Positions 30,801 to 47,767 of a stretch of DNA of 64,000 nucleotides are shown piece by piece. The stretch's first letter is position 1, and each line of letters starts with the position of its first letter. The notes below the pieces were generated by a model. The model searched no databases and was not told the origin of the DNA. It saw only the letters and a program-made list of their open reading frames with translations. Made by a program: the position numbers and the translations under genes. Source of the stretch: Halosimplex halophilum (GTDB taxonomy: Archaea > Halobacteriota > Halobacteria > Halobacteriales > Haloarculaceae); contig NZ_ML214298.1 in NCBI RefSeq assembly GCF_004698125.1, positions 1 to 64,000 of the forward strand. Direction: 5' to 3'.

Positions 30801-31150
30801 CGGCGCGCGCTGGAGCGCGCTCTCGTGCGCGCGACCGTAGCCGCGCGAGGGATGAGCACCGCAGCCTGCGAGGAGCGCAAGAGGCTGGGGAGGTATGAGG
30901 CCCCCTGTGGTGCTGTGCGGATGCAGTGCTGTCCTGGTGGACTGAAAGGGCGAGGCGCGCTCGCGTTCATGTAGTCGTCTGAGCGGGCCACTATCCGCGC
31001 GGTGCGAGGCGCTGCGCGCCTCGAAGCGAACGGCTCTGCCGTGAGCGGGCGGTGCGGAGAGCGCGGATATCCCGCCTCAGCGACCGCGAGCGCGTCGAGG
31101 GCTTTCAGCGCCTGCCGTCGAGTGCGGTCGCTCCAATTCCTAGCGAGCGG
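30801..31150 (+). repeat. Structured repeat element, family 2, copy A
   Basis: Occupies most of the 520-base gap before the Vms1-like gene; no ORF is credible. Conserved blocks shared with copies B and C are GCGCGCTGGAGCGCGC, GATGAGCACCGCAG, AGGCTGGGGAGG, GACTGAAAGGGCGAGGCGCG, the stem CTGAGCGGG/CCCGC-CTCAG, CGACCGCGAGCGCG and a GGCTTTCAGCGCCTG tail. The apex of the stem is expanded here by several small hairpins. Transposase genes and obvious terminal repeats are absent. Confidence 0.75.
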
Positions 31151-32107: not shown

Positions 32108-32525
32108 ATCGGAACTACTGCGAGTATCACGACCGCGAGCAGCGTGACCCTCCGTAGCGACCGTAACCGACCGCACCGCCGGCCCGATCGTAGTGCAAGA
32201 CAGCGTGAAAGCCCCCGTCCGCTCCGGTCGAGGGCCTCGCTGCGCTCCTCGACTCGCTCCGCTCGTCTGCGGTGCTTACTTCGGCCGTCTTCCCGGAGCG
32301 GCCGGCCCCTTTCATTCCCGCCCGCATCGGCTGACCGGTCAGCCGATGCGGGCGGGAATGAAAGGGGCGACGCGTTCGGCGAACCCGGGCGACGCTAGCA
32401 CGCGACCGAAGGGAGCGCGCGCAGCGAGCCCCGGGAGCCGAACGCGTCGGGGCTTTCACGCTGTTCGCGGTCACGATCGAGCCTGCGGTGCGGTCGGTTG
32501 CTGGGGCTGTGATCGCGGTTCCGAC
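32108..32525. repeat. Fold-back repeat element, family 1, copy 2
   Basis: Non-coding, filling the gap before dgcN. The inner ends CAGCGTGAAAGCCCCC (32201-32216) and GGGGCTTTCACGCTG (32458-32463 on) match copy 1. Outer parts also pair (ACCGACCGCACCGC near 32168 with GCGGTGCGGTCGGT near 32486). At the centre, 32306-32367 is a perfect 62-base palindrome with no spacer. The arms of both copies contain the same CCCCTTTCATTCCCGCCCGC. Confidence 0.8.
32306..32367. repeat. Perfect 62-bp palindrome (centre of fold-back copy 2)
   Basis: Left arm 32306-32336 and right arm 32337-32367 are exact reverse complements with no loop. The dyad axis lies in CTGACC|GGTCAG. Such a sequence could extrude as a cruciform or form a long hairpin in RNA. 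Confidence 0.9.
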
Positions 32526-39750: not shown

Positions 39751-40055
39751 TGGCGCGCGCTGGAGCGCGCTTTCATGCGCGCGACAACACCGCGCGAGGG
39801 ATGAGCATCGCAGGCCGCAGGCCGAGACGCGCAAGAGGCTGGGGAGGTGTGAGGCCCCCTGCGGTGCTGTGCGGGGCGGTGCCGTTCCTGGCGGACTGAA
39901 CGGGCGAGGCGCGCTCGCGCTTGTTCAGTCGTCTGAGCGGGCCATTATCCGAAGCGGCCCTTGGGCCGCGAGGATATCCCGCTCAGCGACCGCGAGCGCG
40001 CCTCGCCCTTTCAGCGCTCACTGTCGAGTACAGTCGATTCAACTCCTGGCGAGCG
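39751..40055 (+). repeat. Structured repeat element, family 2, copy B
   Basis: The most compact copy, filling the gap before sua5. Shared blocks are as in copy A. Arm 39896-39919 pairs with 39991-40014 (23 of 24 bases) and encloses the stem 39933-39941/39978-39986 plus ATCC/GGAT and a GCGGCCC-TT-GGGCCGC apex. Alternatively the first arm can form a local hairpin, GACTGAAC (39894-39901) with GTTCAGTC (39923-39930). The two folds are mutually exclusive. Confidence 0.78.
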
Positions 40056-40097: not shown

Positions 40098-40694
40098 ATG
40101 ACCGACGTGGAGCGCGCAGCCCGAGCCATCGCGGACGGCGACCTGGTGGTCTACCCGACCGAGACCGTCTACGGGATGGGTGCGAACGCCGTCGACGCCG
40201 AGGCGGTCGAGCGGGTCTTCGAGGTCAAGGGCCGCGACCGGGACAAGCCCGTCTCGCTGGGCGTGCCGAGCGTCGAGCGGGCCACCGAGTACGTCGACCC
40301 GACCGAGCGGGAACTCGACTTCATGCGCGAGTTCCTGCCCGGGCCGGTCACCGTCGTAGTCAGGCGACGCGACGCCGTGCCCGACGTGCTGACCGCCGGG
40401 CGCGAGAAGGTCGGCGTCCGCGTCCCCGACCACGACCTCGCGCTGGAACTGTTCGAGGCGGCCGAAGTACCGGTCACCGCCACGAGCGCCAACCTCTCGG
40501 GGACCGGGAGCGTCCGGGAGCCCTCGGAGCTGAGCGACGAGGTCCGCGAGCGGGTGGCCGCGGTGCTCGACGGCGGGCGCACCGACGGGATGGAGAGCAC
40601 CGTCGTCGACGCCGAGACCGGCGAGATCCACCGCCGCGGCGCGATGGCCGACGACATCGAGGCGTGGCTCGCCGACCACGCCGACACCGGGTAG
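40098..40694 (+). CDS. L-threonylcarbamoyladenylate synthase (Sua5/YrdC)
   Basis: A 198-residue enzyme that makes threonylcarbamoyl-AMP for the t6A modification of ANN-reading tRNAs. Motifs: AIADGDLVVYPTETVYGMGA near residues 11-30, VKGRDRDKPVSLGVPSVE (KxR...K ATP site), FLPGPVTVVVRR and VPVTATSANLSGTGS with the SxN nucleotide loop. It has the short YrdC-like form without the C-terminal Sua5 domain. The ATG at 40098 begins the domain. Its stop lies in the first unit of a 62-base tandem repeat. Confidence 0.93.
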   Translation: MTDVERAARAIADGDLVVYPTETVYGMGANAVDAEAVERVFEVKGRDRDKPVSLGVPSVERATEYVDPTERELDFMREFLPGPVTVVVRRRDAVPDVLTAGREKVGVRVPDHDLALELFEAAEVPVTATSANLSGTGSVREPSELSDEVRERVAAVLDGGRTDGMESTVVDAETGEIHRRGAMADDIEAWLADHADTG

Positions 40695-40855
40695 TTCGAC
40701 ACGAAACAGGGGGCGAAGTCGCAACTAATCGCCGGGGACACCGTCAGGTACCGGGGTTCGACACGAAACAGGGGGCGAAGTCGCAACTAATCGCCGGGGA
40801 CACCGTCAGGTACCGGGGTTCGACACGAAACAGGGGGCGAAGTCGCAACTAATCG
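40694..40855 (+). repeat. 62-bp tandem repeat, 2.6 units
   Basis: Units begin at 40694, 40756 and 40818 (GTTCGACACGAAACAGGGGG), each 62 bases apart and identical. The last, partial unit ends at 40855 and contains the stop codon of the phosphohexomutase gene. This looks like a recent tandem duplication of the intergenic DNA between the two convergent genes. Confidence 0.95.
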
Positions 40856-42225
40856 ACGCGGATGCCGGAGACGGCGTCGTGGAGCCGGTCGGCCAGCTCC
40901 TCGGCGCGGTCGGCCGAGCGGGCCTCGGCGTAGACGCGGACGACGGGCTCGGTGCCCGACGGGCGGGCGAGCACCCAGCCGTCGCCGTAGTCGAGGCGGT
41001 AACCGTCCGTCGTGTCGAGGTCGGCGACCGACTCCTCCGCGGCGCGCTCGATGGCGTCGAGCATGGCCTCGCGCTGTCGCTCGCTGTCGTAGGCCACGTC
41101 CCGGCGGACGTTCACGTAGTCGTCGTAGTCGGCGACCACGTCGCTCGCGGGTTCGCCGCGGCGGGCGAGCAACTCGCAGAACCGGGCTGCCGTGTAGGCG
41201 CCGTCGCGGGCGATGCGGTAGTCGGGGAAGAGGACGCCGCCGTTGCCCTCGCCGGCGACGGGGACGGACTCGCCGGTCGCCAGCAGGTCGCGGATGCGCG
41301 AGACGATGTACGTCGACCCGATGGGCGTCAGGGTCAGGTCCGCGCCGGCGGCGTCGACCACGTCAACGAGCCGCTGGGAGGCGTTGACCGCGGAGACGGC
41401 GGTGTCGCCCTCGTCGAGGGCGTCGGCGGCCAGCGCCGCGAGGGCGGCGCCGCCCTCGACGTGGTCGCCCCGCTCGTCGACGAAGATGGCGCGGTCGGCG
41501 TCGCCGTCGTGGGCGACCCCCAGGTCGGCGTCCGTGGCGCGGACGAACCGCCGGAGGTCGCCGAGGTTCGCCGCGACGGGCTCGGGGTCGCGCCCGGGGA
41601 AGTGGCCGTCGGGCTGGGCGTGGATCGTCTTGACGCGGCAGCCGAGCCGGCGGAAGAACTCGGGGCTGGTGACCGCGCCGGCGCCGTGGCCGGGGTCGAC
41701 CGCGACGGTGAGGTCGGCGTCGGCGACGGCCTCGCGGTCGACGGCGGCGAGCAGTTCGTCGACGTAGGCGCGGGCGGCGCCGTCGACGTGGCGGCGCTCG
41801 CCGGTCTCCGCCCAGCCGACGCGCCGTGGCGCCTCGTCGAGCAGCCGCGTCTCGATGGCTTCGAGCCGTTCGCGCGGGAGTTCGACGCCGTCGGCGCCGA
41901 CGAGCTTGATGCCGTTGTACTCGGGGGGGTTGTGCGAGGCGGTGACCATCAGGCCCGGGACGCCCTCCCGCTCGGCGTAGGCCTGGAGGCCGGGCGTGGG
42001 GACGACGCCGAGGCGGTCGACGGAGACGCCGACGCTGGCGAGGCCGCCGGCGACGGAATCGACGAGCATCGGGCCGGTCCGGCGGGTGTCCCGGGCGACC
42101 GCGACGCGGTCGGCGCCCCCGGCGCGCCAGACGGTGCCGGCCGCCTGCGCCACGTCGGTTGCATCGCTCGGCGTGAGGTCGTCGTTGACCACGCCGCGCA
42201 CGCCGCTGGACCCGAAGACCCTCAT
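40849..42225 (-). CDS. glmM: Phosphoglucosamine/phosphohexose mutase
   Basis: A 458-residue alpha-D-phosphohexomutase, most like archaeal GlmM, which interconverts glucosamine-6- and 1-phosphate. Catalytic serine loop LMVTASHNPPEYNGIKLVGA near residue 95, metal loop VAHDGDADRAIFVDE near 235, sugar loop VAGEGNGGVLFPDY near 320 and phosphate loop ARPSGTEPVVRVY near 430. Start MRVFGSSGVRG is typical; the GTG before it is ignored. The symbol is tentative because archaeal phosphomannomutase-type paralogues are hard to separate by eye. The 3' end lies inside a tandem repeat without changing the reading frame. Confidence 0.88.
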   Translation of the reverse strand: MRVFGSSGVRGVVNDDLTPSDATDVAQAAGTVWRAGGADRVAVARDTRRTGPMLVDSVAGGLASVGVSVDRLGVVPTPGLQAYAEREGVPGLMVTASHNPPEYNGIKLVGADGVELPRERLEAIETRLLDEAPRRVGWAETGERRHVDGAARAYVDELLAAVDREAVADADLTVAVDPGHGAGAVTSPEFFRRLGCRVKTIHAQPDGHFPGRDPEPVAANLGDLRRFVRATDADLGVAHDGDADRAIFVDERGDHVEGGAALAALAADALDEGDTAVSAVNASQRLVDVVDAAGADLTLTPIGSTYIVSRIRDLLATGESVPVAGEGNGGVLFPDYRIARDGAYTAARFCELLARRGEPASDVVADYDDYVNVRRDVAYDSERQREAMLDAIERAAEESVADLDTTDGYRLDYGDGWVLARPSGTEPVVRVYAEARSADRAEELADRLHDAVSGIRVD

Positions 42226-47090: not shown

Positions 47091-47648
47091 CGGCGCGCGC
47101 TGTCGTCTCGGAATCGCTTGCGATTCCGAGGGCCGTCAGAGCTTGCTCTGACGTTGGCGCGCTCTCGTGCGCGCGACCGTAGCCGCGCGAGGTCTTCTCG
47201 AACTCGTGAGAGAAGGCTCGTCAGAGGTTGTCTCTGACGGTGGATGAGCACCGCAGCTTGCGAGGAGCGCAATCGGCTGGGGAGGTGTGTGGCCGTCTGC
47301 GGTGCTGTGCGGGGCGGTGCCGTCCTGGCGGACTGAACGGGCGAGGCGCGCTCGCGTGCAGTTCAGTCGCCTGAGCGACCCCTACCCGAGCGTAGCGAGG
47401 GTATGTCGCTCAGCGACCGCGAGCGCACCGAGGGCTTTCACCGCTTGCTGTCCCCTGCGGTAGCGACCCCAGTTAGCGAGCGCGCCGAGGGATTTCATCG
47501 TTTGCTGTCAAGTACGGTCGATCCAATCCAGAGCGAGCGCGCCGAGGGCTTTCAGCGCCTGTCGTTTCTTGCGGTCGCGGTCACTGCTAACGAGCGCGGC
47601 GAGGGCTCTCAGCGGACACTATCGAGTGCGAGCCGACCGACTGCTACG
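47091..47648 (+). repeat. Structured repeat element, family 2, copy C (expanded)
   Basis: The longest copy, within a 776-base gene-free gap (46992-47767). It has the same backbone as A and B but four extra perfect hairpins, for example CTCGGAATCG-CTTG-CGATTCCGAG and GTCAGAG-CTTG-CTCTGAC-type insertions before 47150, and two more before 47255. The core stem is CTGAGCGAC/GTCGCTCAG instead of CTGAGCGGG/CCCGCTCAG. The 3' end carries four units of a 57-base tandem repeat starting at 47421, 47478, 47535 and 47592. Bases 47650-47740 show nothing recognisable. Confidence 0.78.
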
Positions 47649-47767
47649 AACCGAATACGAACCACGACACAGCCGACAGAGATGGGCCCCACACCCTCAC
47701 ACCGACCACCACCGAATCGCAAGACACCGACCGTTCAAAGCGGGATTTAACCTTCGGGTAGGGCTAT

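Follow-up and report, generated by a model that had tools for sequence, protein, structure and literature searches.

Copies of the repeat in the window

The analysed stretch of the Halosimplex halophilum genome (64,000 nucleotides, in the following called the window) contains three plus-strand copies of a dispersed repeat, designated A, B and C. Copy B has a glyoxalase-family gene on one side and a Sua5/YciO gene on the other and consists of three parts. The 5' domain (39752..39875) is a GC-rich hairpin that includes the sequences GCGAGGGATGAG... and GGCTGGGGAGG...GGCC. The core hairpin (39887..40012) leads from the left end CCTGGCGGACTGAACGGGCGAGG through a rod of the helices P1, P1b, P2 and P3 to the right end CGCCTCGCCCTTTC, and its P2 arms, CTGAGCGGG at 39933..39941 and CCCGCTCAG at 39978..39986, were assigned by sequence and covariation. 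The tail (40013..40055) comprises one partial 57-bp unit and ends with TGGCGAGCG.

The other two copies have the same organization. Copy A is composed of a 5' domain (30802..30924), a core with an additional hairpin inserted at the apex of P3 (30933..31107) and a tail ending with TAGCGAGCG (31108..31149), and the homology of the downstream gene region with relatives begins directly after this tail. In copy C the 5' domain is enlarged by extra hairpin insertions (47092..47312), the core shows the stem variant CTGAGCGAC/GTCGCTCAG and an apical triloop GTA (47324..47439), and the tail contains about four tandem 57-bp units with the right end GAGCGCGCCGAGGGCTTTC repeated in each (47440..47653). 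The likeness between the three copies is block-wise and amounts to 70-90%. Re-reading of the sequence confirmed the three repeats of the original prediction with their positions, sequences and paired changes. The stem arms are found at 30979-30987 and 31071-31080 in copy A (with one bulge), at 39933-39941 and 39978-39986 in copy B and at 47371-47379 and 47405-47413 in copy C, and the neighbouring pair ATCC/GGAT is changed to ACCC/GGGT in copy C.

A second dispersed repeat is present at 32145-32510 and is also multi-copy in the searched Halosimplex relatives. It is made up of two elements in head-to-head arrangement, which have related ends (GAATGAAAGGGGC/GGGGCTTTCAC) and whose central arms match without a mismatch as an inverted repeat of about 30 bp. 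The plus-strand element (32337..32464) has the ends GGGAATGAAAGGGGC...GGGGCTTTC, which are of the same kind as in copies A, B and C (type I), but the interior of the hairpin is different (type II). A second type II element is located on the minus strand (32200..32336). Directly 3' of the Sua5/YciO gene, at 40694-40879, there are two identical 62-bp tandem units and a partial third one. Positions 1-2026 harbor the start of an rRNA operon on the minus strand, with 16S, a tRNA and the beginning of 23S.

Structure of the unit and covariation

According to alignments of the copies, one long hairpin of about 126 nt, CCTGGYGGACTGAAAGGGCGAGG...CCGAGGGCTTTC, makes up the conserved unit (39887-40012 in copy B). 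The left end CCTGGYGGACTGAAAGGGCGAGG is followed by P1 (GCGCGCTCGCG/CGCGAGCGCGC), a variable bulge, P1b (GTCG/CGAC) and P2, which is the stem of the original prediction. Beyond P2 an asymmetric loop CNC/T, P3 (TATCC/GGATA) and the apex follow before the strand returns to CCGAGGGCTTTC. The end motifs GAAAGGGC...GGGCTTTC form an inverted pair interrupted by a block of mismatches, and the core as a whole is one imperfect palindrome. It folds into a rod-like hairpin in which tandem G.A forms internal loops and the apex is often a GNA triloop. Both the core and the full unit of about 300 nt are too short to encode a transposase. The 5' domain of about 125 nt was found at 57 of the 62 distinct cores searched in the same genome and at 2 of 22 cores in other genera. 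In the tail the right end recurs with a period of 57 bp, which is kept exactly in 44 of 55 spacings. At Halorussus-like loci (L307, L339, L326) the 5' flank is a tandem array of repeats of about 26-30 bp directly upstream, and L307 has right-end tandem repeats downstream. The same ends enclose other hairpins at several loci, including the type II pair of the window (32200-32464), and a Halorussus element combines type I ends with an interior of the same kind as type II.

A first covariation test with copies dominated by Halosimplex, using a null over all column pairs, gave a weak result with 2 pairs at E <= 0.05. The covariation of the fold became decisive with a diverse set of 83 distinct members from many genera. 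With a structure derived from the consensus, 96.2% of the cells in this set pair, and this value drops to 34.7-40.9% if the partners are slid by 1-3 columns. Changes on both sides were observed in 30 of 37 pairs, and none of 500 shuffles reached any of the pairing measures. Using an R-scape-like null, in which the substitutions are redistributed over a FastTree tree, nearly all of the highest-ranking covarying column pairs are structural. About 15 of about 40 structural pairs are significant at 0.05 if the E-values are restricted to structural pairs, which is our own scaling. The proposal that the repeat is selected for its fold is thus borne out by a covariation far beyond what three copies could show.

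The paired changes are not restricted to Watson-Crick pairs. In 182 of 190 copies of the Halosimplex-dominated set, columns 64 and 84, which are located next to P3, switch jointly, with C/C becoming A/A. This switch exchanges G-C/C-G pairs for tandem G.A and therefore represents non-Watson-Crick covariation. Similar tandem G.A is present between the end motif and P1. In this region copy B has a 24-base pairing of 39896-39919 with 39991-40014, which had been interpreted as a fold competing with a local hairpin. The pairing itself is real, but it forms the base of the same hairpin, and only copy B has it in near-perfect form; in most copies GGGCGAGG faces CCGAGGGC with tandem G.A. Of the proposed local hairpin GACTGAA/TTCAGTC only GACT/AGTC is conserved across copies, and the wider family gives no support for two competing folds.

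For the strand of copy B the folding z-score is -8.7 as RNA and -9.2 as DNA, and no shuffle was equally good. Among the mismatches in the helices, G.T (62) is clearly more frequent than A.C (14), which argues for one strand folded alone and not for a symmetric cruciform. Apical loops of the type C(GNA)G, with N being any base, occur in 51 of 145 distinct P3 sequences, and none of these 145 sequences has a C(TTCG)G loop. GNA triloops are known from very stable DNA minihairpins of the GCGAAGC type. The DNA mini-hairpin is cited in the article PMC4686876.

Copy number, distribution and recombination

A search with a covariance model of the 3' half identified at least 84 intergenic copies in the genome of 4.47 Mb (7 contigs). 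All 84 are located on contigs 1-3, and no copy was found on contigs 4-7. With copy B as query 40 full or partial copies were scored. The left-end motif, searched for independently as a pattern, had 86 matches, 44 forward and 42 reverse, and the reversed control of the pattern gave no match in this genome. All but a few of these left ends belong to cores or to hairpin-deleted or degraded remnants. The spacing of the copies is near random; regular spacing was tested and not seen, and an arrangement in replication-strand domains was rejected as not significant (P = 0.10).

Each of the seven other Halosimplex genomes sampled contains between 14 and at least 30 copies. Copies were present in 59 of 116 genomes of the family-level sample and in 83 of 341 genomes of the class-level sample, belonging to 30 of 81 genera and several families, with numbers from one copy upward per genome. 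Exact-pattern matches were obtained in Halosimplex pelagicum, carlsbadense, salinum and aquaticum, in Halorussus and in some haloarchaeal MAGs, and similar stretches occur on some Halorussus and Halovenus plasmids. The element is class-wide but patchy, including between closely related genera and species.

The comparison of orthologous sites showed the same patchiness. Copy B is located at the same place in two further Halosimplex genomes (G013 and G032), in H. carlsbadense (G056) and in H. pelagicum (G079), and it is absent from this site in H. salinum (G043) and H. aquaticum (G089), in which the site of copy C is empty as well. In the H. pelagicum orthologue of copy B (L193) an IS630-type transposase-like gene is inserted in the 57-bp tail. 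The neighbours of copy A are adjacent to each other in none of six relatives. Among 66 conserved gene-element junctions between the H. halophilum genome and fetched loci of other Halosimplex, compared with at least 1.4 kb of sequence available to look in, both neighbours were kept in 28 cases and one only in 38. For some copies the two sides adjoin two different copies in H. pelagicum, and the orientation of the element-adjacent matches to the flank is almost always the same. These one-sided junctions between species indicate that the copies act as sites of recombination and rearrangement, and recombination between copies has rearranged Halosimplex chromosomes. Pairs of closely spaced elements in inverted orientation are found on either side of one or two genes, an arrangement that might allow the inversion of these genes. 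Such pairs are located in the H. halophilum genome at G000:C2:891300 and 892594 (L017/L027), G000:C2:1054393 and 1056057, and G000:C1:2184343 and 2185756, and in H. salinum at G043:C21:193135 and 195251.

Exchange also occurs within the unit. How far two copies differ in the 5' half does not correlate with how far they differ in the 3' half (rho 0.07, P 0.08), and the two halves reassort between copies. The orthologous cores at the copy B site have a mean distance of 0.138 and are barely closer to each other than paralogues (median 0.165). Taken together, these two results imply that part of the paired change within Halosimplex may be passed on by conversion of entire stems. In other genera the stems have many different sequences, which require that compensatory change occurred repeatedly.

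None of the compared sites provided a clean pair of filled and empty site at base resolution that would define the ends, the target or a target duplication, as whole intergenic stretches differ, and for this reason the term mobile rests on the distribution. Orthologous sites in another genus did not yield the exact ends either, the intergenic regions being too rearranged. MITEs have a target site duplication and share their terminal inverted repeats with an autonomous transposon; an autonomous copy with the same ends was not found in the H. halophilum genome. The element may have spread by recombination, conversion and horizontal transfer.

Nature of the element and comparison with known systems

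To what extent the hairpin acts as DNA or as RNA can be judged from the gene context and from the derivatives of the element. The gene strands to the left and right of the 84 copies are mixed (++ 22, -+ 22, +- 21, -- 13), as determined with a simple and rough gene caller that sometimes extended a start into the element, and no gene broken by a copy was seen among them. The common orientation of copies A, B and C upstream of plus-strand genes hence does not generalise, and the regulatory position that it implied finds no support in the wider family. A function as cis-regulatory leader of the downstream genes was rejected because of the mixed strands. Promoter boxes of the TTTA(A/T) type were detected upstream of the 5' domain (within about 110 bp) in 3 of 84 copies and inside the 5' domain in none. 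Derivatives that have lost the hairpin but retain the two ends were identified in the same genome (L385, L386 and L239 at C2:146132) and in relatives (L125, L137), and skipping of a DNA hairpin in replication would be expected to produce such forms. The other hairpins enclosed by the same ends, the GNA triloops and the excess of G.T over A.C likewise favor DNA, the last two being compatible with RNA as well. We therefore favor, with a probability of about 0.6, a non-autonomous dispersed haloarchaeal DNA hairpin repeat that acts as single-stranded DNA and is not an RNA gene. The hairpin would be selected as single-stranded DNA, for example when formed on a displaced or lagging strand, and once folded it might be recognised by a host or transposon enzyme, or by replication and repair itself, to copy, convert or move the element. 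The original prediction, which had left the choice between structured RNA and DNA element undecided, is in part supported, and the question now leans to DNA. A more specific proposal, which we put forward only tentatively, is a class-wide haloarchaeal type of folded single-stranded DNA element of about 126 nt, characterized by RNA-like covariation, tandem G.A, fixed ends and interchangeable hairpin interiors between them, and its spread would depend on an enzyme other than a Y1 transposase or a reverse transcriptase.

A structured non-coding RNA, either independent or processed from read-through, with the copies being an amplified RNA gene or an RNA-regulated element, would account for the excellent covariation, the conserved unpaired motifs, the tandem G.A loops and the RNA fold of copy B (z = -8.7). 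We consider this reading unlikely but keep it in view, because the GNA triloops and the preference for plus-strand G.T over A.C would fit RNA too. The scarcity of promoter-like boxes (3 of 84 copies), the mixed strands of the genes on either side and the interiors that are repeatedly deleted or swapped between conserved ends speak against it, as does the comparison with Rfam, in which no family reached its gathering score at gathering or relaxed thresholds. The only matches, to microRNA models, were attributed to chance, arising from the palindrome. The intergenic location of at least 84 copies on three contigs, with none found on contigs 4-7, their conserved ends, hairpin form and near-random spacing, and the gene conversion between them would also suit a host-maintained element similar to REP/BIME, for instance a binding site of a nucleoid, topoisomerase or repair protein that is spread by recombination and not by transposition. 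Such an element is rather improbable given the patchiness between close genera and species, the absence from orthologous sites in some congeners and the lack of strand domains (P = 0.10). Least probable of all is a degenerate IS200/IS605 (TnpA/TnpB) element that was cut down to its palindromic ends and is mobilised by TnpA in trans. The short length, the missing coding capacity, the palindromes and the many divergent copies resemble the PATEs of Haloquadratum (PMC3119063), but this reading is disfavoured, since profile and end-motif scans of 57 TnpB/TnpA loci of the H. halophilum and related genomes found no homology, and the Y1 transposase (PF01797) was undetected in 4 of 11 copy-rich genomes, the others having 1-2 matches.

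For haloarchaeal genomics the result is a structure-defined, annotated repeat family that coincides with synteny breakpoints. The family offers a clean, natural setting in which to ask whether selection can act on a conserved fold of single-stranded DNA. Strong compensatory covariation is commonly regarded as proving a functional RNA, and its occurrence in an element that is more probably DNA calls for caution. Literature searches, including searches with sequence strings, found no published description; the family may have been listed earlier under another name, for example in ISfinder or in supplementary files. In the main text of a REP sequence survey covering bacteria and archaea, no word starts with 'halo' (PMC12306157).

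The family shares with the structured RNAs of Rfam a secondary structure supported by covariation, but it has neither a promoter nor a gathering-score match. It differs from SINE-like retro-elements in that no reverse transcriptase (PF00078) was detected in any of the 11 copy-rich genomes. REP/BIME and BOX elements of bacteria are intergenic hairpins in many copies, and the middle module of BOX varies in number, which resembles the 57-bp tail units described here. In contrast to these elements, the haloarchaeal family is longer and has internal loops and end motifs that are conserved class-wide, and no obligatory Y1 transposase of the RAYT type was detected as in REP/RAYT systems. The PATEs of haloarchaea have near-terminal palindromes related to those of IS605-type transposons, no target duplication and too little length to code for a transposase (PMC3119063). 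Our family is likewise palindromic, non-coding, divergent and numerous, but its palindromes match no IS605-type ends in the 57 loci. The SMRs of Haloquadratum walsbyi are about 110 bp long and have terminal inverted repeats unrelated to known transposons, tens of copies and an unknown mobiliser; SMR-A inserts into PATEs or IS605-type elements, and SMR copies of the same type are usually >95% identical (PMC3119063). SMR-A/B and the family described here are alike in size (about 110 versus about 126 bp), haloarchaeal host, tens of copies and unknown mobiliser, and the inverted ends of our family are also unrelated to the transposons sampled (TnpB/TnpA loci). Unlike SMR-A, its copies are located between ordinary genes and not in TnpB/TnpA loci, and it differs from SMR-A/B in having imperfect ends, a modular 5' domain, 57-bp right-end repeats and a core that is highly divergent in sequence but fixed in fold.
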